Source of the DNA: Eutreptiella sp. 'Long Island Sound 2002'
Lineage: Eukaryota; Euglenozoa; Euglenophyceae; Eutreptiales; Eutreptiaceae
NCBI GenBank assembly: GCA_964036045.1
Contig: OZ038391.1
Coordinates: forward strand, 43,473,621-43,537,620
Length of the DNA: 64,000 nt
Reading direction: 5' to 3'
Shown piece after piece: positions 16,265-45,483 of this stretch. The translations under genes were made by a program, and so were the position numbers. The number at the start of each line of letters is the position of its first letter. Positions within the stretch are counted from its first letter, which is position 1. A model generated the notes under the pieces. The model had not been told where the DNA came from, ran no database searches, and worked only from the letters and a program-made list of their open reading frames with translations.

Positions 16265-19093
16265 GGGAGCCACGAAAATCGCCCCTCCCCAGGCGATTTC
16301 AGGCATGATCCTCAAATTCCTGATCGACCATTACTTGATGTAGGGTCGCTTGTCTCCTCTCCCCTGGATCCGGCAGCGGATCCTTCTGTTGTAGTGGACG
16401 AGGTTGGTGTACAGTCCAAGCACAGGGCTCGTCAGTTTGTCACAAAGCTGTGGGTCTCTGATTGCAAGGGAAATTTCCACCTCGCCACTTGTTTGTGTGA
16501 TAATGGATCAGAGGTAAATCTCCAATCCAATGCATTCTTACCCGACGACTGCGTGTTCGAGTCGCCTCATCCTGTTACCCTCGAGGGAGTTTCTGGACAT
16601 TCTCTCGCAGGTGGGCAACGCGGTTGTTATATATCAACCCATTTGGTCGCTCAAGACCTTTGGGAGGAGCAAAATGTGGAAGAAGTTGTCCTTAAGGATG
16701 ACTACTTCTACCGTGCTGACATAAAGTATGACCTTTATTTGGGGCATCCTTGGCTTCGCAAGAACAGGGTAGCGCCCGTAGGTCATCGTCGTTGTTTTTT
16801 GCTGGAGTCAGGTCCCTTGGAGCGTCCTGAATTTCGTTTTTTGCACGCAGGGTTTAAAAGTGCAGAAGAATTTTTGAAGCAAAAAGTGACACCAAAATTT
16901 GGTGAAGATGTCACCATTGCAGAGGTGAATGGGAGTGCCGATTACTCTCAAGAGTTAGAATGTCTTCGTAGGGACTCCCAGCCACGACGCCCTTCGCGCT
17001 GGCACTCTTCATCCTACAGAGTTGTCGACAAATGGCGCGATGCAATTTGTGAATACTTTCATGAACATCATTCTTTTTGGCCCCAGTATGATGCATTTGC
17101 TAACCGCACGAACAAGCGCTTTGATAAGCACTTCAGCGACGCTTGGACCCACAAATGGGACAAGAAGTTGTGGATTAATCCTCCGTTTCACTTAATCCAG
17201 CAGGTCATCCACAAAATCAAGCAAGATAAAACCCAGGCAATTTTAGTTGTGCCCTTGTGGGACGACAAGCCTTGGTTTCAGGAATTACAAGACATTTGTG
17301 TTGATTACATCGAACTTCCCAGGAAGATTAAGCTGTATGCCAGGGACGACACAGGTCCCCTGCCACAGCGGTCCTGGAGTTCGCTTGCATTCCTGGTGGA
17401 TGGAAAGCTTTCTGACTCTAATTCTGCCGATTCTAGTACAGATTCCTGTGTTGGGTCTGAATCTGAGGTTGAGCGTGGTACTGATAATGAATCTATTTTT
17501 TCTGATTTTTGTTCGTCAGATACCCAAGGTGATTCAACGTCCAATGGATCCGCCTCGTCTCCCTCTTCCCCAATACGGTCGACATCGAAAAGAATCTTCA
17601 GTGCACGGGCGAGGAAAAATCTCCAATCGCGCCGCAAATTCAGAGTTTTTTATGAAAAACCCCCTGTGGAAGCTTTCATGGATCCTTTCGAGGAGCTGGA
17701 TCGCGAAGAAAATCTCTGGGATTTCGACACAAGACCCACCTATCTTCAAGAGGCAGTTGATACGGACCTGTTTAGGGACATCCGTAAGAAGATTCTTCCT
17801 GCCAAAGCCGAAGAAGTCGCCAAAGTTTTTTCGACAGTAATTCCTGGCGATCAGGTGGACACTGAATTGTGTTCCAAGTCAAGAGAAAGGATTTTTGAGG
17901 AACGGAAGGACACAACCCTTTCAGGGAAGTTGATCAAAGACCCCCCTGTCCGTGGACAGTTCGGTGAAGCCTTCATCGAGCTTCGTGAAGGGTACAAGGC
18001 AAAAAAACAGCGCCCTTATGAAAATCATGGACACAAACATGAGATTCTCAGAAAAATCATCGAGAGAAATCTCAGGGAATTTGGTTGGCTTGAGGGTTGT
18101 ATGACCAGCGAATGGTGCTGTTCACCCTTCACAGTCCCGAAGCCACCGCCTGCAGACCAGAACACCATTGATGGTTGGCGAATGGTGGTTGATTTTCGCA
18201 ATCTCAACGCCGAAACAAAGGCGGATTCACACCCCCTGCCCCTCATTGAGGAGGAAATCGCCAAGAGGGCAAGAGGTCGTTTGTTCTCTGTGCTGGATCT
18301 CCGTCACGGCTTTCACCAAATGCCGTTGAGGAAGGACAGCAGACCTCTCACCTGTATGTGCACGCCATGTGGCCCAGTCCAGTGGACCGTCATGCCCATG
18401 GGATTGAAGAACGCCCCCTCATTTTTTCAAAGAATGATGGAGGATGTGCTGTTCACAACCCATCCTGAGCTTCGTGCCTTCGTGAGTGTGTACATAGATG
18501 ACATAATCATCGCGACGGAGGGGGAGGGACTGACCGAAGCCGAGCTGGTGGCCCTACATGAGAAGCAGCTGAACCAAGTTTTGGATATTCTTGACGCCAA
18601 TCAGCTGATCTGTGGGCCAAAGAAGGGAAAATTATTTTTAAAATCAGTCGAATTTTGTGGTTCTCTCCTAGAGAATGGCACTCGACGACCCAGTCCAGGG
18701 AAGCTCCTCGCTATTCAGAAGTGGAAGCGCCCTGAGACGATCACGGAGTTGAGAGGATTCCTGGGTTGTTGCAATTTTTACCACACTTTTGTGCCGAATT
18801 ATGCCAAATTTGCTGCCCCCCTCACTGAATTTTTGAAGGTAGGGAGAGATGCAGGCAAGGCAGGTTCAAAGGTTCGTGTCAAGTGGACTGACGAGTGCGA
18901 GGAGGCCTTCCATCACTTGAAGGCAGCCCTCTGCGAAGTCGCCACGTTGCATGTGCCCCAATTTGACAGACCCTTCTACATTAGAACCGACGCATCTAGG
19001 TACGCGATCGGAGCTGTCCTTGAACAGGTTGATGAAGCCACCGGCGATCATTACCCTCTTGCATTTTGGTCTCGGAAGCTAGCCCCACGCTAA
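16265..19093 (+). CDS. pol: E3 Pol part 1: protease, methyltransferase-like domain, reverse transcriptase, start of RNase H
   Basis: The frame is open from the codon after the gag TAG, so expression by stop-codon readthrough is likely. No ATG is needed: the first start-like codon is a GTG at 16,394. The protease reads C-D-N-G-S-E-V-N-L (16,499; D-N-G where D-T/S-G is usual) and L-G-H-P-W-L. A Dam-like region follows, with D-A-F-A-N-R and W-I-N-P-P-F (17,171-17,188). Next come an acidic/serine linker, then reverse transcriptase with V-V-D-F-R-N, M-P-M-G-L-K-N-A-P and the catalytic Y-I-D-D (18,491). RNase H begins R-T-D-A-S. The frame is cut by TAA at 19,091-19,093 inside RNase H. Confidence 0.9.
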   Translation, partial: GSHENRPSPGDFRHDPQIPDRPLLDVGSLVSSPLDPAADPSVVVDEVGVQSKHRARQFVTKLWVSDCKGNFHLATCLCDNGSEVNLQSNAFLPDDCVFESPHPVTLEGVSGHSLAGGQRGCYISTHLVAQDLWEEQNVEEVVLKDDYFYRADIKYDLYLGHPWLRKNRVAPVGHRRCFLLESGPLERPEFRFLHAGFKSAEEFLKQKVTPKFGEDVTIAEVNGSADYSQELECLRRDSQPRRPSRWHSSSYRVVDKWRDAICEYFHEHHSFWPQYDAFANRTNKRFDKHFSDAWTHKWDKKLWINPPFHLIQQVIHKIKQDKTQAILVVPLWDDKPWFQELQDICVDYIELPRKIKLYARDDTGPLPQRSWSSLAFLVDGKLSDSNSADSSTDSCVGSESEVERGTDNESIFSDFCSSDTQGDSTSNGSASSPSSPIRSTSKRIFSARARKNLQSRRKFRVFYEKPPVEAFMDPFEELDREENLWDFDTRPTYLQEAVDTDLFRDIRKKILPAKAEEVAKVFSTVIPGDQVDTELCSKSRERIFEERKDTTLSGKLIKDPPVRGQFGEAFIELREGYKAKKQRPYENHGHKHEILRKIIERNLREFGWLEGCMTSEWCCSPFTVPKPPPADQNTIDGWRMVVDFRNLNAETKADSHPLPLIEEEIAKRARGRLFSVLDLRHGFHQMPLRKDSRPLTCMCTPCGPVQWTVMPMGLKNAPSFFQRMMEDVLFTTHPELRAFVSVYIDDIIIATEGEGLTEAELVALHEKQLNQVLDILDANQLICGPKKGKLFLKSVEFCGSLLENGTRRPSPGKLLAIQKWKRPETITELRGFLGCCNFYHTFVPNYAKFAAPLTEFLKVGRDAGKAGSKVRVKWTDECEEAFHHLKAALCEVATLHVPQFDRPFYIRTDASRYAIGAVLEQVDEATGDHYPLAFWSRKLAPR

Positions 19094-21448
19094 ATGCAAT
19101 GGTCGCCGCGTGAGCAAGAAACGTATGCCATCATCTGTGCTTTAAAAAAGTACCAATCGTGGGTTGGCACCAATCGAGTCGAGGTCCTGACGGATCATCG
19201 ATCTCTGGAGTATTGGGCCACCGAACACATTGATACTGTCGCGAGCCCAGCTGGTCGACGGGCCAGATGGCACGAATTTCTCTCTCTGTTTGACCTCCAT
19301 GTGTCGTATTTGCCTGGTAAACATAACACGGTAGCGGATGCTCTGAGCCGATGGGCTTACCCCGCCTCAGAGGGGCTGCAAAGTACCAACATCCGTGGTA
19401 CGGAGCAGGACCGCCATGTAATCATCGAATGGGATCAGGAAGAAAAGAAACTCATTCGACGTGCATGCATGCAGTGCGCTGTTAAACAGCACGCATTGCC
19501 GTGTCACGACATCACGGCCATCACAGATCCAGCGCATGCTCACGAGATCTGCACCAAAACGCTGAAAGTCGTGGAAAAAGTCACCGATCCCTCCTCAGGG
19601 AGTGTGAAACGGTTTGACTATACCCGACAAGTAAGTCGATTTCGGTTGATCGAGGGCATTAAGCGTCGAGATCCGGCCAAAACTCCACCCCTGCCTAAGG
19701 ATTCCCTGATCATCCGTGACTGGACGTCCGGTTACCTGCAGGATCCCATGTTTAAAGAGGTCTTTGGAAATCTCAAATCCAAAGATGCTCATAGGGATGG
19801 GATTTTTGCAGAGTACTCGTTGGATGGGGGGAAGCTGTGGATGGAGGGTAAATTGTGTGTGCCAGACGCCCTAGCCCCCCGAGTGTTAAACTGGTGGCAC
19901 AAATGGGAGTCTCCCCACACACATGGCCGTCGACTGTGGTCGATGATTAAGCATAGGTTGTTTGGATCGAGGCTCTACACTCATTGCATTAAAGTAGCTG
20001 CCGGATGCGCCCAATGTGCTGTCTCGGCGCCTCCCAGCGCGAAGAAGCACGGCCATCTGAGGCCTCATCCTATTCCGGAGCGTCTCTTTAACAGAGTCAC
20101 GAGTGATTTTTTCTATCTCGGTGAGCTCGATGACGAAGAGTGCCATTGGACTAACAAAAAAGTCAATGGTGTGCTCCTTATTCAGTGCCGTCATTCCGGC
20201 TACATTCAAGTGTTGCCTTGCAACATTGAGTCGATGACTGGCAAGGCTGCCGCCAAGTGGTGCGCGCAGACCTGGATGGGAGGCTGGGACGTCCCATCCG
20301 AGGTGGTCACGGATTCAGGCAAAGAGTACACCTCCGAATGGTGGAGAGAATTGTGTGCTCGCCTTGGAATTCACCACCTCCGATGTGAAATCCACTCGCA
20401 TCGAGCGCTGCCTGGCGAAAGAGCCGGCCGCTCTATAATTAATATGCTTCGTAAGGAGCTCGCGAGTGAAAAGGATTTCCATTGGATGGAAGTTCTCTTC
20501 GCATTGCTTCGCCGTTACCACAACACGCCTTTGTATCATGGCCTTTCTCCAAATGAAATTGTCTTTGGACGAAAGAAGTGTTGGTGGAACATGCCGTTGA
20601 ATAATCCTCGCCCCTGTAAGGATGCTTCGCTGTTTTTGGACGAAGTCCAACGAGCAGATAAATCTGTGTCGAAATTAATCGAGAAGCATCAAGCTGACTG
20701 GCTTTGGGTTCAAAATCAAGGTCGAAAAAACCCCCACAATTTTGGAGTCGATGATCGAGTTTGGCTTCGAAAATCCGAAACCACCCTGGACGGAGATGAC
20801 AAGCTTCTTCCCTTGTGGGAGGGGCCATTCGCTGTTACAGCGCGTCTTGGGGAGAACAGGTGGAGGATTCGTGTGGATGTCAGCAGGGAAATTGACGTTT
20901 CGGGCGATCGCCTTAAGAGAGAGATCCCCTCCCCCAAGGATCGAGTTAAACCCCTTTTTTGGACTGCAAAACACTTGTCCGATCGGGTAATCGAAGGGGG
21001 AAAGTACGAACTCAAGAGGATTGTTGAAGCAAGACGTGACGCCAAGGGCGAATGGGAATTTCTGTGTGAGTGGAGGGGCTTTGATTCCAGTCACAACAAC
21101 TGGGAGCCAGCCCAATCTTTTGTCCATGGATACACCAAGGGGTTCATCGACTTCCTCAAGAAGCACCCTGAAATTGGTGTACTCCTGACAGATTGTTTGT
21201 CGAAACCAGACAGACAAGTGGAGAGCGACGGAAAACGACCTGTGGTGAATCGAGATCCAGCCTTTTACGGCCCTCAGCAGCCACATTCCAGGGCTGATCC
21301 GTCGATCCCCCCTCCTGCGGTCAGGTCAGCCCAGGAACCAAATGAGGACCAAGCTTCGAGTTCGGCCGCTGATTTGCAGCGCCCAAGCCGTACCAGGGCC
21401 CGACCAGACAGGTTGGTGGTCACCTGTATTCGTGCTTGGCCGAATTGA
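19094..21448 (+). CDS. pol: E3 Pol part 2: RNase H remainder, integrase, chromodomain
   Basis: It continues in the same frame after the TAA. RNase H: E-T-Y-A-I, T-D-H-R-S-L and A-D-A-L-S-R-W. The integrase zinc region has a histidine pair (H-K-W...H-T-H-G) and C-A-Q-C. The integrase core has S-D-F-F-Y, T-D-S-G-K-E-Y and P-G-E-R-A-G-R, which keep the D, D and E. The C-terminus has D-R-V-W-L-R, G-P-F-A-V and a chromodomain (Y-E-L-K-R-I-V-E-A-R, F-L-C-E-W-R-G-F, N-N-W-E-P-A-Q-S-F). The final stop is TGA. Aligned with E2, the TAA replaces a Glu codon, so it is probably an inactivating substitution rather than a boundary. Confidence 0.9.
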   Translation: MQWSPREQETYAIICALKKYQSWVGTNRVEVLTDHRSLEYWATEHIDTVASPAGRRARWHEFLSLFDLHVSYLPGKHNTVADALSRWAYPASEGLQSTNIRGTEQDRHVIIEWDQEEKKLIRRACMQCAVKQHALPCHDITAITDPAHAHEICTKTLKVVEKVTDPSSGSVKRFDYTRQVSRFRLIEGIKRRDPAKTPPLPKDSLIIRDWTSGYLQDPMFKEVFGNLKSKDAHRDGIFAEYSLDGGKLWMEGKLCVPDALAPRVLNWWHKWESPHTHGRRLWSMIKHRLFGSRLYTHCIKVAAGCAQCAVSAPPSAKKHGHLRPHPIPERLFNRVTSDFFYLGELDDEECHWTNKKVNGVLLIQCRHSGYIQVLPCNIESMTGKAAAKWCAQTWMGGWDVPSEVVTDSGKEYTSEWWRELCARLGIHHLRCEIHSHRALPGERAGRSIINMLRKELASEKDFHWMEVLFALLRRYHNTPLYHGLSPNEIVFGRKKCWWNMPLNNPRPCKDASLFLDEVQRADKSVSKLIEKHQADWLWVQNQGRKNPHNFGVDDRVWLRKSETTLDGDDKLLPLWEGPFAVTARLGENRWRIRVDVSREIDVSGDRLKREIPSPKDRVKPLFWTAKHLSDRVIEGGKYELKRIVEARRDAKGEWEFLCEWRGFDSSHNNWEPAQSFVHGYTKGFIDFLKKHPEIGVLLTDCLSKPDRQVESDGKRPVVNRDPAFYGPQQPHSRADPSIPPPAVRSAQEPNEDQASSSAADLQRPSRTRARPDRLVVTCIRAWPN

Positions 21449-23083
21449 GGAAGCCATCCTACCACATTCTGCTCAATCCACTGTTCATTCTTTCTGTTTA
21501 TGTCATGATGTGGAGAACTGCGAATGTTTGATAATTTGACGTCAATCAACTTTTCTTTGGTCTCCGTTCGGCAGACAAGGCGTAGATACGCTGACGGAGT
21601 GTGCTGCCGTGTTTAGAAAAAACCAAACTCAGGCTTAATTCAGGCAGATTCGGGGTAATCTTGTCTCTGTTGGTCTGTGCATCTTTGGAATTTGGCTACT
21701 CGTGCAGATGGAAGCAAATGTACATAATCCAAACGCTGGCCAGCGACATTCACCCCTACAGGCAACCCCTGTAGTACTGGCTGCCCTAGAGGCGACGCCA
21801 GGAACCCAGATCTCATCTTCATTTGCTGTGATGCTGACGCCAAAGTCCAGATTCAGATCCAGGATCCTCAAATTTACCTTGAATTTCTCAGGTTTGTCCA
21901 TCATTCTGCCACTGTTGTACGAAACCCAGACGTCAATTGTTCAGACAATCTTCATCTAGGAGCTCTAGGGACTTCTAACAGCAACCTCTGAAGTCCGTAA
22001 GCTTCGTTGTATTTTTGGCACACGCCAATGTGAGCTCAATCCGACCTGAAACTGTCGAGAATGGTGAATCCAAGTGTCTTGTGGGACTTCATCGAAAGAT
22101 TGGCCTTGTCCAAGTCGATTGACACCACCGCCACTGTAAATTCGGTGTCTCTCAGTTATATACTGTCAGTAAAGTGCCTTCAGTGAACCTTCGGCGCGTT
22201 ACATGCCAAGGATCCAGGGCCAGCATGTCCCATCATGATGCATCATCACATGATCCACATTTTGATAGAATCTGTTAGATGCTCGCGAACCAACGTGCCG
22301 GAAAGCACAATTGAGCTGAATAAACGACAATATATATTAACTTTAGTCTAAACGAAGGTGTTGGTAGTTTCAGTTGTACACATTCCGCTTCATTTCACCT
22401 TCATCTCAGGGAATTTACTCATGTTAGGACAATTTAGATTGATTTCCTTGTCATCTCCCATCATTCCTCGAAGATCTGTTTAGATCTAAGTGAACGGAAA
22501 GACATTTATACCTTCGGTGGTTCACTTAGGGTCTGTAGACTACATGTGTAATTGTTTAACCTCTCTGTGATTGCTTAATCCCCTCAATCTCTGCTCAAAT
22601 TCATTCTCATTTTTGCTGAATCTTGTGATCATCCACCAGATGCGCCAAATCTGAGTCACATGCTGTACTTTTCAGAACGAGAAAAGCGGGATAACACGAT
22701 GTAGAGTTCGGCGAGGACACCGTAGCGTGCCCGCGACAGCGAAACTGTGCCAGAGCGCTGAGATGTCACTCCAATTCTTGATCCCCCCACTCAATCCACC
22801 AATAATCTACCTCATTCTCAACCAATGCATGGTTTGGTATTGATTCTCGATACGTTTACATGCTTTTTAGCCCGTGACCTAATGTTTCACTGCACGGAGG
22901 ACTGTTCGTCACTTCTCATTCTGTCTCATTTCAGGTTCATCTAGCCTGATTCAGTGCCAATTCAGCCCAATTCAGGTCAGATCAAGCAGATTTCGCCCCA
23001 TCGAGGCTACATTTCTATGTTTTTCTGGGACTTACCCGCACTACGTTCTTCGTTGACGTAGCGACACACCCCAGTGTGTTTTT
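21449..23083 (+). other. E3 3' non-coding region
   Basis: About 1.6 kb between the pol stop and the polypurine tract. No protein motif was seen on either strand. It is unusually long for a gypsy element 3' end. Confidence 0.7.
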
Positions 23084-23093
23084 GGAGGGGGAG
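23084..23093 (+). other. E3 polypurine tract
   Basis: GGAGGGGGAG abuts the TG start of the 3' LTR. Confidence 0.85.
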
Positions 23094-23625
23094 TGTAAGT
23101 GCGGCTAGCCCCATCTGCTCAGATTTTCAGACATTCTGCCCAGATTGGCTACATTTTGGTCATTTTCTTTGCTTCGGCGGAATTGCCGCCTCGCAGCTCA
23201 GTCACAGGATATTTCCTATATATTTCTGATATGCCGGATTTGATTCCGCGGTCCATTTCCCGTAGATCCGCCGCATTCCGCTATTTTAGCTGGAATCGCC
23301 ATTTGCCGCTGACGCGCGCTCGCGGGCCAGATCGGCCAGACAATTTTACATAAATGGATTATTTAAATTCATTCGGACAGTTTTGGACACTCAGATGTAT
23401 TTAGAATAATTCCCCTCAATTTTCTTCATAGACTGGGATTTTCTGCCGGACCACAATCAGCATGGACCTTGCTTCTGTTGTCGCTGCTCTCGCCTCCGTT
23501 GGTGTTCGTGTATCCGGTTCCAACCCCAATAACAACATCCAGGGAGACTCCTCGCGTGCCTGCCCCACTGGTCTTGCCGGCCCCGAGCCCTCCGGCACCC
23601 ACAATGACCCAGGGCAGCACTTTCA
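23094..23625 (+). repeat. E3 3' LTR
   Basis: Identical to 12,861-13,392 except for one C/T difference near the right end. Followed by the CCCCG duplication. Confidence 0.95.
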
Positions 23626-24336
23626 CCCCGGTAGGTCATTCAGGCCCCAAAGTGCCTGTGGGAGCAGTTGCGGCCAGGTGGAACCCTCGCGTCCACTTTG
23701 CTCCAAAAAATTGCGCAGTGTGTTGGTGACGGTCTGTACCGCCCTCTTGGCCCTACCATTGCTGCTGGGTCGATAAATTTCCGTCTTACATTGCTCCACC
23801 CCCGAAAGGGTGAACAAGGTGTCCCAAAATTTCCCATTTATAATACCGGCATTGTCGGCGGTAATATCCTTGGGCAAGCCCATGAGGAATACACACCGTT
23901 CCAGAAATAGCTCTGCGGCTTTCTCAGCCGTGAGCCCCTTTTTACGACAAGGCAGGGCCAACACGTAGCCTGTAAGCCTGTCAACGATCACCATGAGGTA
24001 TTCATATATTTCACCGCGAAACTGTGTCGCCGGTAATTCCACGAAATCAATGGCGATACTGGCAAACGGGTATGCAGGCACGGGGAAAAACTTCTGGTTG
24101 TCCGGATGCGCGCCAAGTCGGGGCTTAGTGGTGGCACACGTGCACCCTTGGACAACCTTTTGTGCCCTGTCGCGGAGTGCTGCCTGAGTAAGCGGAGAGT
24201 AAAATTTGCGCTGAAAAGCCTCCACTGTCTTACTCACCCCTGGATGCGTGTAAGTATGGACCGCCTCTATGACTTTATTCACGAGGCCATCTGGTACCCA
24301 TACCCGTCCATCACGACGAATTTTACCGTCGTGCAT
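23623..24336 (-). CDS. E2 integrase, zinc region and catalytic core
   Basis: The E2 integrase upstream of the E3 insertion. The N-terminal zinc region has H-T-Y-T-H-P-G and G-C-T-C, where the CxxC is imperfect. The core has the first Asp in A-I-D-F-V-E and the second in T-A-D-N-A-G. At the third catalytic position, the conserved G-x-x-E-R reads G-R-A-K-R, with codon AAG at 23,746-23,748, so the glutamate is lost. The frame runs into the E3 LTR at its 3' end. Upstream it is continuous with the RNase H frame except for a TAG at 24,439-24,441. Confidence 0.85.
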   Translation of the reverse strand: MHDGKIRRDGRVWVPDGLVNKVIEAVHTYTHPGVSKTVEAFQRKFYSPLTQAALRDRAQKVVQGCTCATTKPRLGAHPDNQKFFPVPAYPFASIAIDFVELPATQFRGEIYEYLMVIVDRLTGYVLALPCRKKGLTAEKAAELFLERCVFLMGLPKDITADNAGIINGKFWDTLFTLSGVEQCKTEIYRPSSNGRAKRAVQTVTNTLRNFLEQSGREGSTWPQLLPQALWGLNDLPG

Positions 24337-24438
24337 GCCTAGGCGGTAGTCCCGCGTGTGTAAAAAATTTTCTTGCTCAAGGTACGTCCAATAGGGAGCA
24401 GTAGTGGGATCGGCTTGGTAGTGGAAAGCCCAATCATC

Positions 24439-26028
24439 CTACAACACGGCTACAGAAGGGGGGAGTTTTTTCCGCAAGAAGGCATTAATCATGAGAAGAG
24501 ACTCCCTATCCCATGAGAGCTTGGGAACTGTCTGTAACTTATGGCGTGCGTGCCGCCTTTCCTGTTTGTCTGCCCGCCTCCGCCTAGCTAAATCTTTTTT
24601 GTCCGAAGGGCTGTGCTGGTCCCGCCAGCCCCTGTTGAAAGCCTCGAGTACGGGCCGGCTCAAACGAGCCTGAAGGCGGCGGAGGTACCGGGAGGGGATG
24701 GTGTCTGAAGAAAGATAGTCGGCCTTCGACGCTGGTGTGATATGAAAAATGGCCGCCGAGGAAATGGGAGGGGTCTCTGAGGGCAGGTTCGCCTTCTGCC
24801 TACTATTGTAGAGTGCCCTATCGGCCTCCCACTCTGTGGACATGTGAGTAACCCAGTCGGCGCGGAGCCGTCGTACTGCCAGTTCTTCGCCCTGCTGCAC
24901 ATAGGCCCTAGGCTCCCTGGCTTCTCTATCAGCCTCCTTCTGTTTGTCTAGGAGCCACTGCTCCTGACTAACAGCACTACCATGCATGGTGGTGTCCTCT
25001 CGTACCCCCGCTGGATAGGCCCACCTACTCATGACGTCCCCAAGGACGTTGTCTTCACCCTTGGTATAGTTCAACCTAATGTCGAACCTGCCCAGAAATT
25101 CATGCCAGCGCCCCCGACGCCCGAGGGGCCCCGACATGGTACACAGGTCTTCCCGGTACCACTTCAACAGAGCCTGGTGGTCAGTGTGGACAACAACGAC
25201 CTGGCCCCCACCCACCCATGGCTCAAACTTTAGTAGGGCAGTCACCAAGGCATACGTTTCCTTCTCCCGCACCGACCAGTCGCATTCCCCATTTTGGAGT
25301 TTGCGGGAGAGATACGCTATGACTTTCCACACCCCAGGAGAAATTTCCTGTTCCAGGACTGCACCCACAGCAAAGTCACTGGCATCCGTGTGCATCCGGT
25401 ATGCGCCACCGGGCACAGGAATGTGAATGACGACATCATCACTGACCAGTGCCTGCTTGATGGCCTCGAATCCAGCTTCCATTTCCTTGGTCCACTGTAT
25501 AGTATTGTTTTCCGGCTTCACTTTTATTTTGTGGCCCTTCTGCCCTTGAGGCCGTGCCTCGGAGTACTTTCCTTTCAAAGACTCCATCAGTGGGGCCGCA
25601 TGCTGGGCGAAATTTTTTATGTAAATGGCGTACCAATTGGCATGCCCAAGGAAGCCCTTCATTTGTTTTGGGGTCTTTATCATTTCCTTGGTCCACCCAG
25701 TTATGGCCCCGAGCTTAGATTTGGCCGGACGACGGGTGCCCCCTTCAAGGATATGACCACAATATTTGACCCGTGTGCGAAAAAGATGGCACTTATCAGG
25801 CTTGACTGTCAAATAACAGTCATGCAGTCGTTGAAACAGCCGTCGGACTCGCTCCCAGTGCAGGTCGAGTGTGTTTTGGCAAATTTCACCGTCCACCGCC
25901 GGTGTGCCATTGAGGATATCATCAATGTACGGCTCAAAGTCCGTATCATTTTCTCGGTGAAGACAGTCCGCCACCATGCGTTGAAAAGCCTGAGGACCAA
26001 TTTTGATCCCATCGGTAAGACGTTCCAT
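24439..26028 (-). CDS. E2 reverse transcriptase C-terminal half and RNase H
   Basis: Begins in the reverse transcriptase after a frameshift (G-I-K-I-G-P-Q-A-F-Q-R-M), with catalytic Y-I-D-D near residue 35 and L-F-R-T-R-V-K-Y-C-G-H. RNase H has M-H-T-D-A-S, K-E-T-Y-A-L, H-T-D-H-Q-A-L-L and D-V-M-S-R-W. A charged linker of about 160 residues precedes the integrase. The frame ends in TAG at 24,439 but continues open, and in the same frame, into the integrase, so the stop may be read through or may be a CAG-to-TAG change. Confidence 0.88.
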   Translation of the reverse strand: MERLTDGIKIGPQAFQRMVADCLHRENDTDFEPYIDDILNGTPAVDGEICQNTLDLHWERVRRLFQRLHDCYLTVKPDKCHLFRTRVKYCGHILEGGTRRPAKSKLGAITGWTKEMIKTPKQMKGFLGHANWYAIYIKNFAQHAAPLMESLKGKYSEARPQGQKGHKIKVKPENNTIQWTKEMEAGFEAIKQALVSDDVVIHIPVPGGAYRMHTDASDFAVGAVLEQEISPGVWKVIAYLSRKLQNGECDWSVREKETYALVTALLKFEPWVGGGQVVVVHTDHQALLKWYREDLCTMSGPLGRRGRWHEFLGRFDIRLNYTKGEDNVLGDVMSRWAYPAGVREDTTMHGSAVSQEQWLLDKQKEADREAREPRAYVQQGEELAVRRLRADWVTHMSTEWEADRALYNSRQKANLPSETPPISSAAIFHITPASKADYLSSDTIPSRYLRRLQARLSRPVLEAFNRGWRDQHSPSDKKDLARRRRADKQERRHARHKLQTVPKLSWDRESLLMINAFLRKKLPPSVAVL

Positions 26029-27245
26029 TGGAAATTCCCAAATGGCGTCGAGAATGTGGTGTATTTCTTGCTGTCCTCGTGCAGGGGCATTTGATGGAAC
26101 CCATCCTCCAAGTCCACAATGGTCCAGAGGTGGTTCCGGGACTGCTTTATAAGCTGGTCCTCAATGACCGGCAACGTAAAATTATAATTTTTCATCTGCG
26201 TGTTGACATAGCGGTAGTCTATGACAAGACACCATTTGCCGTTTGGCTTGGGCACTAAAAAGGCCCGGGAACACCACCCAGACCCCGCATCCGTGACTGT
26301 CTCAATAAACACCTTGCGTATAAACTCAGCAATTTTGTCACGGACGGCCTGGTGTCGGTGTCCTACCGCCCGAATCGCCCGAAATTCCCTGGGGATAGCC
26401 CCCGGAATTTCCTCAATCTTACAAACCCCATATTTACCTCGTTTGAGGCAGTTATCCATAATGTCCTTGTATGTCTTCGACTCAAAGACTTGGGGAAACA
26501 ACTCGAGAAGCTTGCGTTTGTATTCGGGTGCCAGGGGATGCTCATGTTCGGATTCAGAGCCCACCACGGACCGAATCAGGCGCCCCCTAAAATGATGGGC
26601 TTGGACACCCGTAGTCCACATGTGTTGGGCATCCTCAGACAAGGACAAGCGGTGTAGAATACGCCGCATTCGTCTAGGGAGTCCTGGTGAATCCTCTGTG
26701 TCAGCGGTCTCTCCTTCCGACACATCTGAGGCGGGTGGCACACAAGACTTCCCCTCATTGGTTATAGTTTTGTTAGGCGTTTCGAAAACATGGTGTGGGT
26801 CATCATGAGCGGCAAAACATGCATCCAACAGCACCACGCGGGTGCCCCACTCTCTCTGTGGATATACCGTTCCGGAATCATCCCGGAAAACTGGTATGTC
26901 GTGCAGAAGGTCCACCCAATCAATGGCGGCCTGGCCCAGAGCCCAATACCAATCTTGTCGCTCCCACCTGGGGACTATGGCTATCCCCCTAGCCCCTTGT
27001 AGAAAGATCTTCTCCACCACTTGAGGATATAGACTGAAGGGAGGGTTAAGCCAGAGGCAGTCCTCCTCACTCCAATCTTGTCGTAACGCATTGTCCATTT
27101 TGGACCAATATTGTCTAAACTGTCTATTTGCCCCGGATGCAAAAGCATCTATAGTGGGCAGAAACGGCGCAGGCTTTTTCGCCTCAGTGTCCTGGGCAGG
27201 GCGGTTAGCCCATTGCAATATCCACTCTCGTAACTTCGGAACCAC
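25809..27245 (-). CDS. E2 methyltransferase-like domain and reverse transcriptase N-terminal half
   Basis: Residues about 25-150 form a domain with D-A-F-A-S-G-A-N-R-Q-F, W-L-N-P-P-F (27,036-27,053) and I-A-I-V-P-R-W. This follows the pattern of phage Dam-type N6-adenine methyltransferases (PF05869-like), including the NPP[YF] catalytic motif and the hydrophobic strand after it. Reverse transcriptase fingers and palm follow: V-I-D-Y-R-Y-V-N, D-L-E-D-G-F-H-Q-M-P, V-L-P-M-G. After that the frame shifts near 26,025, and the rest of the enzyme is in the 24,439-26,028 frame. Upstream, this frame connects to 27,333-27,821 across a TGA at 27,333-27,335. Confidence 0.8.
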   Translation of the reverse strand: MVPKLREWILQWANRPAQDTEAKKPAPFLPTIDAFASGANRQFRQYWSKMDNALRQDWSEEDCLWLNPPFSLYPQVVEKIFLQGARGIAIVPRWERQDWYWALGQAAIDWVDLLHDIPVFRDDSGTVYPQREWGTRVVLLDACFAAHDDPHHVFETPNKTITNEGKSCVPPASDVSEGETADTEDSPGLPRRMRRILHRLSLSEDAQHMWTTGVQAHHFRGRLIRSVVGSESEHEHPLAPEYKRKLLELFPQVFESKTYKDIMDNCLKRGKYGVCKIEEIPGAIPREFRAIRAVGHRHQAVRDKIAEFIRKVFIETVTDAGSGWCSRAFLVPKPNGKWCLVIDYRYVNTQMKNYNFTLPVIEDQLIKQSRNHLWTIVDLEDGFHQMPLHEDSKKYTTFSTPFGNFQWNVLPMGSKLVLRLFNAWWRTVFTEKMIRTLSRTLMISSMAHRRWTVKFAKTHSTCTGSESDGCFNDCMTVI

Positions 27246-27821: not shown

Positions 27822-27854
27822 GGGTAGGGAGGGGCGCCTGTCAGAAGCAGTTGG

Positions 27855-28544: not shown

Positions 28545-29385
28545 CGGTTCTCGGCATTTGACCCTCTACCCTTGGTTTATAAATATACGTTCTTTGAGGA
28601 GCCGGTATCTCTGCTAACCGAGGCGCCTGTGACCGTGCGGGAGAAAGAGGTCTGGAAAGAGGGGAAGAGGAGGGGGGGGAAGGAACGGAAGGGAGGGGTG
28701 AGAGGGGAGAAGCTGGTACGATTGTAGCTTGAGCCGTTGAAGGAGTCTCGCAACGGCAATGTCCCTGTACCCGGGAACACATTGCCTGCACAGGGGGGAG
28801 TGGTACATGCGGCACACATGCATGCAGGCATTCCTCGTATACCAGGTGCTTGCTGGAGGGGAGGAGTGCGAACCAATACCTGGCGAGGAATGGAAAACCT
28901 AAAATTATACGAGGTCCTATGTCCGCCTCGTGTATAAAGAGATCGGTACAGTATGCCGTCGTGACCTCGTCCCCTTGTACCGCTGGCAGCCTCATACTTA
29001 CCCAATGCCCCCTGTAACCCCCTTGTAGCTGATTGGGCCCCACCCCCATGAGTGCGAATTTATGAGGTGCCTGTGTGCGAAGCGAAAGAGGAAGGACGCC
29101 GAATCCGGCAACCGCTAAAACCTGACTACCTGAGTCGATAAGTACCTGGGTGCTCCTACTAGAGTCGTCGGTTAATGTAATCCGGACTGGAACCTCGAGC
29201 TCAATGTCGCGCTCGTAGGCGTTTCCCCCACGTGGCGGGCGTAGAACTTCACGTCCCACCCCAACCTGGAGGGTGCATAGTTGTCTATCGAGGGCTGTAG
29301 ACAAACTACGGACTCGTAAAGGACATAACAACGCGGACGGATGGTGCGGCGCTTGGGCGTCCAGACCCAACCACCCGCCGCGGCT
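28504..29385 (-). CDS. E2 protease
   Basis: Directly follows the gag TAG (29,386-29,388) in the same frame. A retropepsin core is visible: V-L-I-D-S-G-S-Q-V-L-A (D-S-G active site, near residue 80) and R-I-I-L-G-F-P-F-L. A proline/serine-rich tail follows. The aspartic protease would cut the Gag-Pol precursor. It ends at TAA 28,504 because of the frameshift to the linker frame. Confidence 0.8.
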   Translation of the reverse strand, partial: SRGGWLGLDAQAPHHPSALLCPLRVRSLSTALDRQLCTLQVGVGREVLRPPRGGNAYERDIELEVPVRITLTDDSSRSTQVLIDSGSQVLAVAGFGVLPLSLRTQAPHKFALMGVGPNQLQGGYRGHWVSMRLPAVQGDEVTTAYCTDLFIHEADIGPRIILGFPFLARYWFALLPSSKHLVYEECLHACVPHVPLPPVQAMCSRVQGHCRCETPSTAQATIVPASPLSPLPSVPSPPSSSPLSRPLSPARSQAPRLAEIPAPQRTYIYKPRVEGQMPRTGGTRECGGTAARI

Positions 29386-32485: not shown

Positions 32486-32832
32486 CTTTCAACCTTGGAT
32501 CCACGCCAAGATCCACAAGCTGCCACGCGCGCAGGCGAGATGATGATGCCAAACGAAGCAAAGGCAGGTCCAAACGACCCAAACGAAGCGTCGCGCGTCG
32601 ACGGCGACCTTGGACCTTTCAACCCTGGATCCACGCCAAGCTGCCACGCGCGCAGGCAAGATGACGGTGCCCAACGAAGCAAAGGCAGGTCCAAACGACC
32701 CAAACGAAGCGTCGCGCGTCGACGGCGACCTCGGAACTTTCAACCTTGGATCCACGCCAAGATCCACAAGCTGCCACGCGCGCAGGCAAGAGGACGGTGC
32801 CCAACGAAGCAAAGGCAGGTCCAAACGACCCT
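32486..32832. repeat. Tandem repeat in E2 5' leader, about 2.7 copies of 121-130 bp
   Basis: Units start at 32,486, 32,616 and 32,737 with the word CTTTCAACC and share a CTGCCACGCGCGCAGGC block. The second unit lacks a 9-bp AGATCCACA segment. The repeat lies between the primer-binding site and gag on the minus strand. Confidence 0.9.
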
Positions 32833-32936
32833 GCTCAAGTGCGGATGCTCGCCAGCAGATTCAATTGACTCACTGGAGTTGCTTACACACTGCCGCAGGC
32901 TCAAAGGATCAGAAGATGACAGTCGGCAAAGCAGGA

Positions 32937-32950: not shown

Positions 32951-33429
32951 TGTAATCTTTTGACTCTGAGTTGATGAGTGTTATTCTTTAACCCTGCCAC
33001 CATGCAAGCTGTTTTTTTCCTCCGAACACCAAATGTACCAGTGTACCTGCAACAACCCTGCAGCACGAAGTAATTGCAAATCAATCCAATCTGCCAGTGA
33101 TCTCGGATCCCAGAGACATGAATAAAACGTGGTCATACTGCAGAGCAGCATGAGCACATGGAATACAAACACCAATGGTTGTAACGACAAAATAATGCAA
33201 CATATTTAAGTATTGTGCTCTATAGATGCTGCATGTCACTGCATGTCACTCTGTATGTCAATGTCTGTAAGATCGCTGATGAATGCGCGACTTATAAAAA
33301 CACCAGATCATTTGGAATCTTGAATGAACTATAAATACACCAAATCATGACTTAGCTATAAAACATCAGAATGATGAAATAGCCCTGTATGTAGCCCTGT
33401 CTGTTAATGGGACTGTACTGGCCATTACA
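32951..33429 (-). repeat. E2 5' LTR
   Basis: Matches 10,211-10,689 with 10 differences. Followed by the CAGCC duplication at 33,430-33,434. Confidence 0.92.
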
Positions 33430-33434
33430 CAGCC

Positions 33435-36930: not shown

Positions 36931-36934
36931 GTGT

Positions 36935-37590: not shown

Positions 37591-37656
37591 CCCTCATCGC
37601 ACAGCAACAAAATACCTCTTCGATCATTGGGACAGCATAAGCAAGACCTCTTTTTT

Positions 37657-37668
37657 GATTGACGGGAT
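37657..37668 (-). other. E1 primer-binding site, self-complementary
   Basis: On the minus strand ATCCCGTCAATC directly follows the 5' LTR end. Its exact reverse complement GATTGACGGGAT is in the LTR on the minus strand (37,786-37,797 here and 9,942-9,953 in the other LTR), 26 nt downstream of a TATTTTA box. Confidence 0.75.
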
Positions 37669-37821
37669 TGTAATGGTTTTTGTCCTTGGTCTGATTTTGA
37701 TCATCCTTGTCTAAATCCTTCATTTTAATCTATCTCCTTCTAACGTCTGCGAAGAACTCAAGAACAATAACCAAAACTTAATATCATCCCGTCAATCTGT
37801 ACAAACATTTTGAGTGTAAAA
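37669..37821 (-). repeat. E1 5' LTR, left piece
   Basis: The first 153 bp of the 266-bp LTR, ending at the TAAAA duplication (37,817-37,821) created by E4. Confidence 0.9.
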
Positions 37822-38530
37822 AGAAAGATGTCCTTGAATTATGCCCTAGATCTTTTGATGTATTCCTGCAGGTTTTGTAGTTGAAAACCCAAACCAAAGC
37901 AGCAAGTAGAGCAAGAACAGGATATGGATCGAATCAATGATTGGTTTTGGAATCCAGTGTAACACAGAAGGGCTGCAGATAGACAAAGCAGGTTTATACA
38001 CAAAGATTCAATCACAAATGGATAATACAAAAGATTTTATATGAAAATTGGTCTGACTCTTGCCTCAGAGGTTGCATTAGGCACTTCATGTGCACTCTTT
38101 TGGGTGAAAGGGTGCTGGTTAGGACTGAGGGGCATAGATGTCAGGACCACACAGAAAATGACTTGGCCAAGCAACTGAATTCAGAAACAGTTACAAAGTA
38201 GGACCACAATAAGTGGTAGAAACAATTGAGTATAGGGGTCTTGGGGTGGGAGACCACTAGGCTTAACCTCCAAGGCCTAAAGCATGAAATGCCTGTTTTA
38301 TTTCGGTATATCCTCCATGAAGGAAGGTACCTCCGCTCAGTTGAGTGGTAGGGGTGAACTTCATGGGGGGCTAGGGTCACAACCCTAGTTACTTTGAGAA
38401 AGTGTACTTTAGGCAACAAAAGAGAGATAAAAACACTTAAGTTTGTCCTAGCATCAACAAAGGGTTTTAAAGGGGGGCTTAGCCTGGATCAAGCCCTCCA
38501 AGAAAGACATGGCAGTGACTTTTTCTTACT
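37822..38530 (-). repeat. E4 3' LTR
   Basis: Matches 48,143-48,851. It is bordered inside by a polypurine tract (minus strand CCAGGGGGG at 38,531-38,539) and outside by TAAAA. Confidence 0.93.
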
Positions 38531-41077: not shown

Positions 41078-42100
41078 TTAGTTTCGCTTCTTACGCTGGG
41101 ACATAGTCTCAGCACGGGTTAGGAGCTGCCCCTCGTTGTTCTCAACGAGGTAGGTGCGGAAGATGGGGTTGATGCTCCCATCTGGTTGTATGAAGGCTGA
41201 CATAGGTTCCCAGGTCGCCTCAGACAACCCATAGTGATCCCACAGGGTAAGGAATTTCCAGCCCTGTTTATACTCGTGGCGAGCAATACCTGCAACCACG
41301 TAGTAACCATCGACTGCCATCTCATCGGCAGTCATCCCTTCGAGTTCGTCTGCCTCCTCTGGACTGGCAGCGTTTTCTAGGTCTATACGTTCAATCTCAC
41401 TGTCGCTGAGGCGCCACTCATCCCAAGACAAGTCGTCAGGGGAGTGATAGTGCCTCAACTGCTTAGGTGCACATAGCAGTTCACCACCTAGACGTGGCCT
41501 GCACCTGACATGGATCCTGGATCCATCTATCCTGATGATACGATAGGGTCCAAAGTAAGGGTCCTGTAGGCAGTTACGTGGCCAGGAGGGTAGGCGTGAA
41601 TGGTGTACCAAAACAAGGTCACCAACCTTGAAGCTGGCAGGTCGCCGTAGGCGGTTCTGTCGGCTCTGTTCACGGTCACGAATGTGCCTCAGGTTAGTAC
41701 CAGCCTGGTTAGCCAGAGACTGCTTGTGTTCCAGCCAATCTCCCACAGGGCTCTTGAAGTCCTCAGGAAAGGGGGTTTTGAAAAACCAAGCAGGTCGTCC
41801 TCCATGGAACAGTTCTTGGGGGGTGAAACCCGTAGAAGAGCTCCGCTGTGAGTTCATGGACAGCACTGCCCAGGGCACTAGGCGTACCCAGTCCTTGATG
41901 CGCTCCTGTTTCATCAGGATTCTTAAGTTTTGCTCCACCACACGGTTCTCTCTCTCACAGAGAGGGTTAGACGTGTGGGTATAGGGCACACCTGTGGTTA
42001 CCTCTACGTTGAGGGCATTTAGCACTCGTTTGTACCAACCACCCAGTGTCACTGCGGATGCGTACATTTTCATCAGAGTGCACCTGCTTAGGTGCTCCAT
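41078..42100 (-). CDS. E4 integrase C-terminal part and chromodomain
   Basis: The frame takes over from the upstream integrase frame after a one-base shift near 42,080-42,095 (G-W-Y-K-R-V-L-N). It holds the catalytic Glu context S-N-P-L-C-E-R-E-N-R, then F-T-P-Q-E-L-F-H-G. A G-D-L-V-L-V-H-H module and G-P-Y-R-I-I follow. Last comes a chromodomain (Y-Y-V-V-A-G-I-A-R-H, F-L-T-L-W-D-H-Y-G-L, A-T-W-E-P-M-S-A-F). It ends with TAA. Confidence 0.85.
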   Translation of the reverse strand: MEHLSRCTLMKMYASAVTLGGWYKRVLNALNVEVTTGVPYTHTSNPLCERENRVVEQNLRILMKQERIKDWVRLVPWAVLSMNSQRSSSTGFTPQELFHGGRPAWFFKTPFPEDFKSPVGDWLEHKQSLANQAGTNLRHIRDREQSRQNRLRRPASFKVGDLVLVHHSRLPSWPRNCLQDPYFGPYRIIRIDGSRIHVRCRPRLGGELLCAPKQLRHYHSPDDLSWDEWRLSDSEIERIDLENAASPEEADELEGMTADEMAVDGYYVVAGIARHEYKQGWKFLTLWDHYGLSEATWEPMSAFIQPDGSINPIFRTYLVENNEGQLLTRAETMSQRKKRN

Positions 42101-43529
42101 AGGGTTCGAACCATTGTTCGACCAACATTTTCACAGTCTGCTCACCTGTGATTTTCTTATTACAAGGGAACACACGGGTGAAGCGGGATAGACCACAGGT
42201 GACCACGAGGCAACTATCATAGCCGCCAAAGCGTGGTAGGCCGTGGATGAAATCCACGTAGAGAAGAGAGTTAGCACAATAGGGTATGGGTAAGCTGGAG
42301 ATCAGGCCCCTATCCCTACTGTCGCTCTGCTTGCTGGCGTGACAGCCACAAGCATCCACAATGGTCTGCATACGCGACCTCAGTTCAGTCAGGGTTAGAC
42401 TAGAGTAGAAACACTCACGGAAGAAGTCCACTGAGCGATTAGCGCCAGTGTGACCAGAACTGAGATGGGACCACTGTAGGCACCCATCCAGTCGTGCCTC
42501 AGGCACCACAATTCGGTCCTCGTAGAAGAGGTACTGATTGTTTTTATACCATTGGTGCCCGTCAATGACACGGGGTTCGAGACCAGTGCTGAGGGTTTGG
42601 AGAATTTCTTCATACTCTGACTGATAGTCGGTTAGACTCCAACCCTCCAGGATTCCAGCAGTGCGCATGGACAGGTCAAGCTGGACATCCATACGCTGGA
42701 AAGCCTCTTTGGCGAGCGCCTCAGAGCTCTCACCAATAAGCGCATCGAAGTTGTTGCGCGATATATAGTCAGACAGTTCATTCTTAATCCCGGGGATATG
42801 ATGCACTGTCAGCCTGAACTGGCTCAGGTAAGTCCACCACCGTTTTAGCTTTGCTTTTTCTGGTGGTGGGCCCTTCTGAAAAGACTTCACAGCCTCCTGG
42901 TCACACAGCCAGACAGTAGGGTTAGATCCCAGGAGCCGGGATTGTGACGATAGCACCAACATACCGGCCAGGAGTTCCTGGTCATAGGTGCTGTAGTTGG
43001 AACGCGCTTGGTTCCATTTCCAGTTCCAGTGTCCTAGTGGTACTAGTCGCCACTCACTGGTAGGATAGTCATGTTTCAACGAACCATCACGGTTCAGTCC
43101 AGTAGTACGATAATGGCAGTGGGTTAGTTCAGCGGGGTTAAGCTCCTGCAATTGGTAGATCGTACCACCCCCCCCTACATCACTGGCATCAGTGATCAGG
43201 ACTATCTCGCCCTCAGGGCGGGGCACTCCCAGGGAGTTGGAGGAGGCAATCTTCTTCTTCAACTCCTGGAAACACTCTTCCTCTCTGGAGGTCCACCTCC
43301 AGGGAGTAGTTTTCTTGATCAGGTCAGTGAGGGTTGCAGAGGAGTAAGTAAAATTGTGGATGTGACGCCGATAGAAATTACAGGCGCCCACAAAACTCCT
43401 CACATCGTGTAGACCCTTCTTAGGGTCATCGCGAATCTGCATGTCCTGTAGGGGCTGCATCTTAGACGCGGCTGGTTTCCACCAGCCATACCCCGCGTCG
43501 AAACCCAAATACTCCATCTCCTCTTTCAT
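41967..43529 (-). CDS. E4 reverse transcriptase end, RNase H, integrase N-terminal part
   Basis: Starts within the reverse transcriptase thumb (E-E-M-E-Y-L-G-F-D-A-G). It is in the same frame as the upstream reverse transcriptase, separated by TAA 43,569-43,571. RNase H: L-I-T-D-A-S-D-V, S-T-Y-D-Q-E-L-L-A, C-D-Q-E-A-V, E-L-S-D-Y-I-S-R. The integrase zinc region has H-L-S-S-G-H-T-G and C-G-C-H. The integrase core has the first Asp in Y-V-D-F-I-H-G and the second in H-S-D-E-N. After this the frame shifts and the rest is in the 41,078-42,100 frame. Confidence 0.88.
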   Translation of the reverse strand: MKEEMEYLGFDAGYGWWKPAASKMQPLQDMQIRDDPKKGLHDVRSFVGACNFYRRHIHNFTYSSATLTDLIKKTTPWRWTSREEECFQELKKKIASSNSLGVPRPEGEIVLITDASDVGGGGTIYQLQELNPAELTHCHYRTTGLNRDGSLKHDYPTSEWRLVPLGHWNWKWNQARSNYSTYDQELLAGMLVLSSQSRLLGSNPTVWLCDQEAVKSFQKGPPPEKAKLKRWWTYLSQFRLTVHHIPGIKNELSDYISRNNFDALIGESSEALAKEAFQRMDVQLDLSMRTAGILEGWSLTDYQSEYEEILQTLSTGLEPRVIDGHQWYKNNQYLFYEDRIVVPEARLDGCLQWSHLSSGHTGANRSVDFFRECFYSSLTLTELRSRMQTIVDACGCHASKQSDSRDRGLISSLPIPYCANSLLYVDFIHGLPRFGGYDSCLVVTCGLSRFTRVFPCNKKITGEQTVKMLVEQWFEPYGAPKQVHSDENVRIRSDTGWLVQTSAKCPQRRGNHRCALYPHV

Positions 43530-43568
43530 AAACTCACATTTTTCGAGTTTGATTCGGAGATGGTTTTC

Positions 43569-43973
43569 TTAACAGACAATGAAAAATTCACGGAGGAGAA
43601 GGACGTGGTCCTCTTTGGTATTAGTACCCAAACTCACGTCGTCGATGTGAGCCTCCATTTCTGCACCCCGAGAAATCAACTCTTGTACTAGAGGCTTGCG
43701 CCTCAGTATGTATAAAATTTTGTTCATAAGCTCCTGGAAGAGCGCTGGGGCATTAGCCACCCCGAAAGGCATAACCTTCCACTTGAAAACACGACCCTTA
43801 GGGGTTATAAAGGCCAACAGCTCCTGAGCTGCGGCGGTTAGGTCCACCTGCCAGAAACCAGAGCGTTTTGTCCATTTTGGTCTTATACCTGCATTTGGCA
43901 ATACGCTCCAGGGTGTTTTCCATGTTAGGAATACTCCCTGAGCGGTTCTGGGTTTTCTTGTTGACCTCACCAT
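43569..43973 (-). CDS. E4 reverse transcriptase middle part
   Basis: Reverse transcriptase palm: S-G-F-W-Q-V-D-L, F-K-W-K-V-M-P-F-G-V-A-N-A-P-A-L-F-Q. The catalytic motif is H-I-D-D (the usual Y-I-D-D with His at the first place, both Asp kept). The N-terminal half is in another frame upstream, with the shift near 43,866. It ends at TAA in frame with the thumb region. Confidence 0.85.
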   Translation of the reverse strand: MVRSTRKPRTAQGVFLTWKTPWSVLPNAGIRPKWTKRSGFWQVDLTAAAQELLAFITPKGRVFKWKVMPFGVANAPALFQELMNKILYILRRKPLVQELISRGAEMEAHIDDVSLGTNTKEDHVLLLREFFIVC

Positions 43974-44922: not shown

Positions 44923-45483
44923 TCAATTTTTGAGATCATAAAGGGTCAGGCCACGATTTTTGGCCATGACCTCTTTCAGTAGCACCTGGTCTAGGTCACA
45001 CAGGGGTACAGGATTGAGAGATCCATCGACGATGGACAGGAAACTGGCCCACTCAGGGGCCTGCATAGCTGTGTCTGACTCCTCAGGCACATAGATGGGG
45101 CCGTCGGGGAGTTGCACTCTTCCCACGGTCATTCGATCTAGCATACGGCGCCAGTAAGCATGTTCACCAGAGCAACCCCAGTCAGGGGTGCACATAACAA
45201 CCCTTCCCCCCTCATAAGCGATTTTGGTTAGAACCTTCGCGAGCAGGGAGAAGGGAGGGTTAGCATACGCTAGGCCCATTGCTTTCCAGAAGAAACGGAA
45301 AGCATTGTTCAGTTGTTTCGAGCAGTACAACTGCATGATGTGCTGTTGTTGGCTCGCAAACGATTCCACCTGGATCTCATCCAGGTTTACCTGAAGGGCC
45401 GCCAGTCCATTTTCAAGAACGTGACGGGCCAACTGGTAGTTTTCAGTACGATAGTTCGTCTTGGCTGCGTAGCGCAGCCCAGA
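44923..45483 (-). CDS. E4 methyltransferase-like domain
   Basis: In frame with protease, after TAG 45,484-45,486. It contains E-S-F-A-S-Q-Q-Q-H, then Y-A-N-P-P-F-S-L-L (NPPF at 45,250-45,261), then G-G-R-V-V-M-C-T-P-D-W. This is the same block order as in E2 and E3 and resembles phage Dam-type adenine methyltransferases. It has no other assignable motif and is followed by TGA. Whether it binds S-adenosylmethionine or has activity cannot be read from sequence. Confidence 0.6.
   Translation of the reverse strand, partial: SGLRYAAKTNYRTENYQLARHVLENGLAALQVNLDEIQVESFASQQQHIMQLYCSKQLNNAFRFFWKAMGLAYANPPFSLLAKVLTKIAYEGGRVVMCTPDWGCSGEHAYWRRMLDRMTVGRVQLPDGPIYVPEESDTAMQAPEWASFLSIVDGSLNPVPLCDLDQVLLKEVMAKNRGLTLYDLKN

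Follow-up and report, generated by a model that had tools for sequence, protein, structure and literature searches.

Why would a retrotransposon carry an adenine methyltransferase within its polyprotein, and what would the enzyme modify? This question is raised by a 64,000-nucleotide stretch of the Eutreptiella sp. 'Long Island Sound 2002' genome (contig OZ038391.1, forward-strand positions 43,473,621 to 43,537,620; the whole stretch is called the window here), in which three gypsy-type elements, designated E2, E3 and E4, bear a Dam-like domain in pol. At a probability of roughly 0.55, we favor the reading that these elements represent an old chromodomain-containing Ty3/gypsy lineage, which gained a pol adenine methyltransferase once, retained it and would use it on its own nucleic acid.

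A Dam-type domain separates protease from reverse transcriptase

The three segments lie where the original prediction had placed them, with borders that turned out a little wider (Table 1). Comparison of the E2 segment with the Pfam family Dam (PF05869) gave 38.8 bits (E = 1e-9), above the curated cut-off of 28.1, and a segment from a fourth family found elsewhere in the genome (L002) reached 45.8 bits. The Pfam scan of the isolated segments listed no family besides PF05869 at E ≤ 10, so that neither a lack of any methyltransferase match nor a better match to something unrelated, against which the prediction had cautioned, was found; the same result rules out a cytosine methyltransferase. In PHROGs, phrog_111 'DNA methyltransferase' was the top row for E2 (E = 1.2e-11), for the L002 family (4.3e-12) and for E3 (9.8e-4).

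As a control for chance, a hidden Markov model (HMM) built from 75 distinct Dam proteins, all from viral contigs, was run against the 738 open reading frames (ORFs) of at least 50 amino acids in the window and against 50 residue-shuffled sets. The E2, E4 and E3 ORFs ranked first to third, with 32.5, 15.3 and 14.2 bits (E = 1.8e-9, 3.6e-4 and 7.5e-4), while the fourth ORF scored 3.3 bits and the highest score over all shuffled sets was 8.0 bits. Profile-profile comparison of the retroelement Dams with the phage Dams yielded a probability of 98.2% across 97 columns, and the three segments retrieve each other with phmmer. Because the HMM ranks relative to the shuffled sets, the Pfam match and the profile-profile comparison agree, we conclude that the resemblance goes beyond chance and that the proposed Dam-like identity stands.

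The motif series reads DAFAN...INPPF...ILVVPLWD in E3, DAFAS...LNPPF...IAIVPRW in E2 and ESFAS...ANPPF...VVMCTPDW in E4. Thus, the third strand of E4 departs from both patterns that the prediction had given for it. Among the wider set of copies, DAFA is combined with NPPF in E2, E3 and a fifth family (L049), E[SL]FA with NPPF in E4, and DAFA with NAPF in the L002 family. The order of D-x-x-A followed by NPP[YF], which is that of phage T1-type Dam, is present in the retroelement domains. Structure prediction with AlphaFold2 gave models with a predicted local distance difference test score (pLDDT) of 79.4 and a predicted template modeling score (pTM) of 0.77 for E3, and 77.4 and 0.75 for E4. Compared with BFVD, the E3 model had a DNA N-6-adenine methyltransferase as its top row, and the E4 model resembled phage DNA N-6-adenine methyltransferases. 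Sequence searches of solved structures with the Dam segments returned no related chain.

The domain order of E3 is gag (by position), protease, Dam, reverse transcriptase (RT), RNase H, rve integrase and chromodomain, with RT_RNaseH_2, RT_RNaseH and Chromo above their cut-offs and rve (E = 6.9e-7) slightly under its own; the Pfam scan of E3 ORFs matched no gag profile. E2 has the same order, its chromodomain lying past an insertion of E3. RNase H of E4 also exceeded its cut-off, rve (E = 7.5e-5) and Chromo (E = 0.059) fell under theirs, and RT is represented in the window copy by a short piece alone (43701-43865, E = 3.5e-9). Among the protease regions, E4 alone scored above a Pfam cut-off, and those of E3, E2, L049 and L052 were left unmatched by the Pfam protease profiles. 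We call the E3, E2 and L049 regions protease because they align with that of E4 at D-x-G and at a later [VIL]-[LIV]-G...L. The E3 region aligned with E4 at both motifs with 22% identity, and the E2 region was found by phmmer with the E3 query (E = 1e-6) and the L002 query (E = 1.2e-8). The predicted position of Dam between protease and RT holds for the three elements, with the protease recognized by profile in E4 and by alignment in E3 and E2.

All three elements have paired direct long terminal repeats (LTRs) with 5-base target duplications, as expected of Ty3/gypsy elements (Table 1). Together with the RVT_1-type RT, the rve integrase and the chromodomain, these bear out the earlier assignment to the gypsy type, a class given here by profiles and domain order and not by an RT tree. 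A DIRS element misread as gypsy is ruled out by the LTRs, the target duplications and the rve-type integrase, and no phage integrase (tyrosine recombinase-type) profile was matched among the window ORFs scanned.

The domain is a genome-wide trait of pol

We searched the 2.28-Gb genome, counting from the best 150 scored places per query; first-look candidate numbers are not copy numbers. With the E3 Dam query, all 150 scored places (the best of 25,383 candidates) were 100% identical at the protein level, the commonest open frame having 1727 amino acids. All 150 scored places of the E4 query (the best of 30,201 candidates) showed 97-100% identity, with a commonest open frame of 1600 amino acids. 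None of these 300 scored copies has an internal stop, and open pol frames longer than those of the window copies occur elsewhere in the genome. The PF05869 search gave 93 matches at E ≤ 0.001 among the best 150 scored of 3,813 candidates. Of these 93 places, 14 were inspected at the sequence level besides E2 of the window. Dam within pol is thus a genome-wide trait, present in at least 300 near-identical copies.

The surrounding domains were surveyed with E-values that apply to the whole ORF holding each piece; some isolated matches in unexpected locations were set aside. At six further loci from the PF05869 search, RT lies 3' of Dam in all six, RNase H was found in five (marginally in L050) and integrase in four, and a protease region lies 5' of Dam in three; the stretches analyzed were 5.2-5.4 kb long and might miss either end. 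Neither RNase H nor integrase was seen in L047, and L050 is rearranged near the Dam start. Of the eight E4-family loci (L053-L060, the first of them the window copy), seven have RT 3' of Dam; L060 showed no RT.

Copies of the E3 Dam are dense in the first 1.7 Mb of contig C2, where six pairs are exactly 8,513 bases apart and open-frame lengths of 1370, 485, 486, 489 and 552 amino acids recur. The pattern would fit the amplification of a block of elements near the contig end.

Dam and RT trees agree and pol is constrained

Five Dam-bearing families could be distinguished (E2, E3, E4, L002 and L049), between which identity ranges from 19 to 53% in Dam and from 29 to 68% in RT. Unrooted trees of these five taxa share the same branching order for the two domains, with supports of 69 and 98 for RT and 72 and 96 for Dam. 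This agreement fits a single gain in a common ancestor followed by joint descent, and the Dam domain was probably gained once and then kept as the elements diverged deeply. Silent sites compared between families have reached or nearly reached saturation, and in the two closest pairs the Dam protein retains about half of its residues.

Ratios of replacement to silent differences, each expressed as a proportion of sites (pN/pS), show constraint at the protein level on the Dam-bearing pol. Within the E3 family (28 rows, consisting of 27 of 30 loci and the window copy; L017, L021 and L039 were dropped by a similarity filter), the ratio was 0.049 for the protease region, 0.034 for RT, 0.156 for the linker between Dam and RT and 0.101 for the end of gag. 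Between L002 and L051, for which pS is unsaturated at 0.36, the ratio was 0.188 in Dam, 0.278 in RT, 0.303 after Dam and 0.245 before Dam. The value for Dam in seven rows of the L002 family, without L005, which was removed by the similarity filter, was 0.344 vs 0.63-0.91 in other parts, and that among seven E4 loci was 0.161, both sets having been picked by Dam. The original prediction had argued that retention suggests a function; protein-level constraint and co-descent with RT support this, with a bias from the Dam-based choice of copies.

Known methyltransferase-bearing elements are built differently

The earlier statement that DIRS elements have a related domain after RNase H agrees with their description: a Dam-type (PF05869) domain follows RNase H in Pol, and the elements encode a tyrosine recombinase and have neither a protease nor a DDE integrase (PMC3783388, PMC3266345). 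The likeness to DIRS1-like elements (RT, RNase H and methyltransferase plus tyrosine recombinase) is thus a PF05869 domain within Pol (PMC3783388, PMC3266345). In contrast to DIRS, E2, E3 and E4 have LTRs, target duplications, protease, rve integrase and chromodomain, and their Dam domain precedes RT instead of following RNase H, a comparison made by published descriptions.

A DNA methyltransferase domain within the Pol of a gypsy or DIRS element has also been described for KnitGypsy-Dnmt3 of Klebsormidium nitens, whose Dnmt3 domain is under purifying selection, and for SymbioDIRS-Dnmt3 (de Mendoza et al. 2018; PMC5890265). However, the KnitGypsy domain is a cytosine Dnmt3, while that of E2, E3 and E4 matches the adenine Dam family only, which the same authors term structurally unrelated to Dnmt3. 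They argue that the cytosine methyltransferases of DIRS Pol methylate complementary DNA (cDNA) and note the DIRS adenine methyltransferases as possible analogues (PMC5890265). An orchid Ty3/gypsy lineage with an AlkB m6A demethylase is similar in that gypsy elements gained an enzyme acting on N6-methyladenine, yet it is a demethylase, encoded in an additional ORF, from Phalaenopsis (PMC9289625). In the excerpt of the Kuafuortervirus paper, an N6-adenine methyltransferase is named just in an architecture legend (PMC11673190), and in Ectocarpus a different DNA methyltransferase resides within a DNA transposon (PMC12477816). The excerpts of open-licence literature that we searched contained no description of Dam between protease and RT in gypsy elements (subscription papers, preprints and Repbase lie outside this scope), and an earlier description of the arrangement is possible.

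The phage T1-type Dam (PF05869, phrog_111) shares with the retroelement domain a core of D-x-x-A, N, W, NPP[YF], K, P and W in the same order. The retroelement domain differs from it in the absence of the N-terminal WxTP, in NPPF for NPPY and in being fused into a polyprotein. A search of viral contigs for Dams of the retroelement type confirmed none.

What the domain may do

Self-methylation of cDNA or RNA appears to be the likeliest role of the domain. It would be packaged with Pol inside the particle, remain beside RT or be released by the protease, and bind S-adenosylmethionine. It would then methylate adenine N6 in the nucleic acid of the element itself, most likely new cDNA before integration and, as second choice, RNA. 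A mark on the cDNA could let the element pass host defence or begin its chromosomal life with a chosen mark. More broadly, a whole Ty3/gypsy lineage of at least hundreds of copies may encode an adenine-N6 methyltransferase as a fixed part of Pol and use it during replication to mark its cDNA with N6-methyladenine (6mA) or its RNA with m6A. It would then be an independent or ancestral counterpart of DIRS, and adenine self-methylation a general strategy of retrotransposons, a proposal that we regard as tentative and still doubtful.

The function of the DIRS methyltransferase was unknown as of 2011 (PMC3266345). A second, differently built class of retrotransposon with a related domain elsewhere in Pol provides a natural replicate of DIRS, and if both classes write adenine methylation, a shared reason becomes testable, such as cDNA protection, chromatin state at birth or RNA fate. 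The question also bears on the source of eukaryotic 6mA, as a self-marking retrotransposon would give 6mA concentrated in new insertions.

Several observations weigh against a retained, active enzyme gained once. The E3 and E4 segments scored 21.5 bits (E = 2e-4) and 17.1 bits (E = 4.5e-3) with PF05869, both under the cut-off, and phrog_111, although the top row for E4 as well, reached an E of just 0.16. Foldseek of the model against PDB gave no match under E 0.001, and since phage Dams sat in the model alignments, the structural resemblance does not count as evidence separate from the sequence similarity. The trees have five taxa, are unrooted, and one split is supported at just 69 and 72. 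The pN/pS of 0 for Dam in the E3 family is no evidence of constraint, since the copies were picked by Dam protein identity, and E2 differs from its nearest relative L047 by 7 replacement changes and 1 silent change, which shows no sign of constraint and might be what two decaying copies would display. Finally, WxTP is found in 14 of 14 phage rows, in none of three retroelement rows in one alignment and in none of six in another (phage rows L099, L141 and L144 were excluded), and together with NAPF this suggests that catalysis may have been lost at least in the L002 family.

Within that family, L001-L008, L048 and L050-L052 read NAPF in place of NPPF, with NTPF once, in L005. Catalysis may have been lost or altered in this family, with the remainder of the domain kept; NAPF alone is no proof of such a loss because the phage row L088 reads NAPY.

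The missing WxTP and the NAPF motif would also be accounted for by a non-catalytic relic that is kept for its structure or because it binds nucleic acid, serving for instance as a spacer or as a cofactor of RT, in line with the DIRS methyltransferase, which was likewise without a known function in 2011 (PMC3266345). Against this, few positions stay fixed at Dam identities down to about 19%, and these include those of N-x-P-F and the A of DxFA. Such a pattern suits an active site more than a scaffold, and we consider a relic rather unlikely. With RNA as the substrate, the domain would instead be an adenosine methyltransferase that places an m6A or cap-near mark on the element's transcript and thereby helps it to be translated, packaged or hidden from RNA surveillance; this alternative seems unlikely to us. 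PCIF1/CAPAM is a cap-specific adenosine methyltransferase, and no match to it was seen at the sequence level, in Pfam on the segments or in sequence searches of solved structures. Least of all do we expect the likeness to be a coincidence or an artefact confined to three damaged elements. The scores of E3 and E4 under the Pfam cut-off and the damage in all three window copies (a stop in RNase H of E3, stops edging Dam in E4, a split RT and the E3 insertion in E2) speak for it, but the ranks of 1-3 among 738 ORFs relative to shuffles, the 300 stop-free scored copies and the mutual similarity of the families oppose it, and a chance match is ruled out by the phage-only HMM ranking with its shuffle control and by the genomic copies.

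Also with a once-gained methyltransferase, its source could have been a DIRS-type element, from which it moved by recombination, and not a phage or bacterium. The RT of DIRS elements is close to that of Ty3/gypsy elements, which counts for this origin. So does the presence of a Dam (PF05869) domain in DIRS elements (PMC3783388); its place after RNase H (PMC3266345), not before RT, argues against it, and we see the transfer as a serious possibility somewhat short of even odds.

Anatomy of the window elements

E3, a young element with nearly identical LTRs, is nested within the older E2 (12861-23625 within 10211-33429). Because of the LTR pair and the target duplications that define this nesting, the stretch 12046-12860 is inferred to hold what remains of the E2 integrase frame, together with the chromodomain. 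E4 is likewise nested, fragments of a surrounding repeat lying on either side of it at 37668-37821 and 48851-48970. In both E3 (TAG, 16262-16264) and E4 (45886-45888), gag is closed by a stop and pol resumes without a change of frame, an arrangement like that of elements that produce Gag-Pol by stop-codon readthrough.

Table 1. Features of E2, E3 and E4 in window coordinates.
Feature	Position	Strand	Remarks
E3 Dam-like domain	16961-17428	+	156 amino acids; DAFA and INPPF; open stretch
E2 Dam-like domain	26796-27245	-	150 amino acids; DAFA and LNPPF; open stretch
E4 Dam-like domain	44926-45483	-	186 amino acids; ESFA and ANPPF; in-frame stops at both edges (window copy)
E3 5' LTR	12861-13392	+	1 mismatch in 532 vs 23094-23625; target duplication CCCCG
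E3 likely primer-binding site	right after 5' LTR	+	TGGTAGCAGAGG, which we take to be complementary to initiator methionine tRNA
E3 gag frame	13199-16264	+	terminates in TAG; pol continues in same frame; gag by position
E3 protease region	16385-16834	+	directly 5' of Dam, shared frame; DNGSEV, LYLGHPWL
E3 RT	18065-18754	+	RVT_1, E = 7.2e-26; borders as in the phmmer query
E3 RNase H, rve integrase, chromodomain	18875-21445	+	in-frame stop 19091-19093 within RNase H
E3 3' LTR	23094-23625	+	partner of 12861-13392
E2 5' LTR	32951-33429	-	partner of 10211-10689
E2 protease region	28852-29151	-	DSGSQV, IILGFPFL; phmmer matches and alignment
E2 RT	25687-26285	-	RVT_1; split across two frames in window copy
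E2 RNase H and integrase start	23701-25500	-	Pfam and phmmer
E2 chromodomain	12226-12399	-	E = 8.9e-4; far side of E3 insertion
E2 3' LTR	10211-10689	-	10 mismatches in 479 vs 32951-33429; target duplication CAGCC
E4 5' LTR	48143-48851	-	48144-48851 vs 37823-38530: 2 mismatches in 708
E4 likely primer-binding site	after 5' LTR	-	GGTAGCAGAGGC; same kind as E3 site
E4 protease	45487-45885	-	LDTGATL, IVIGTDFL; gag-asp_proteas 31.6 bits, above cut-off; RVP 27.0
E4 RT piece, RNase H, rve integrase, weak chromodomain	41081-43865	-	
E4 3' LTR	37822-38530	-	about 708 bases; TAAAA flanks both sides of element

Other observations

Tandem units of about 121 bases occupy 32483-32887, just inside the 5' LTR of E2. 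Elsewhere in the window, four copies of one stretch (4358-8725) follow each other at an exact spacing of 1,356 bases and are 97-98% alike over the 300 bases compared, and 54646-61502 contains long direct repeats, mostly 93-98% alike and irregularly spaced, with an inner periodicity of 8 and 12 bases in part.

The plastid contig C2205 has a green-type rbcL beside rpl2-rps19-rpl22, and the top PDB rows for this rbcL are 9hvm and 1gk8, the second a Chlamydomonas structure, implying that the host has a green plastid. Copies of these plastid genes, some of them decayed, were found on other contigs: rbcL-rpl2-rpl22 on C2 (L012), rpl2-rps19-rpl22 on C20 (L016) and a piece of rpl2 on C5 (L014), with further rpl2 matches on C7 and C25.

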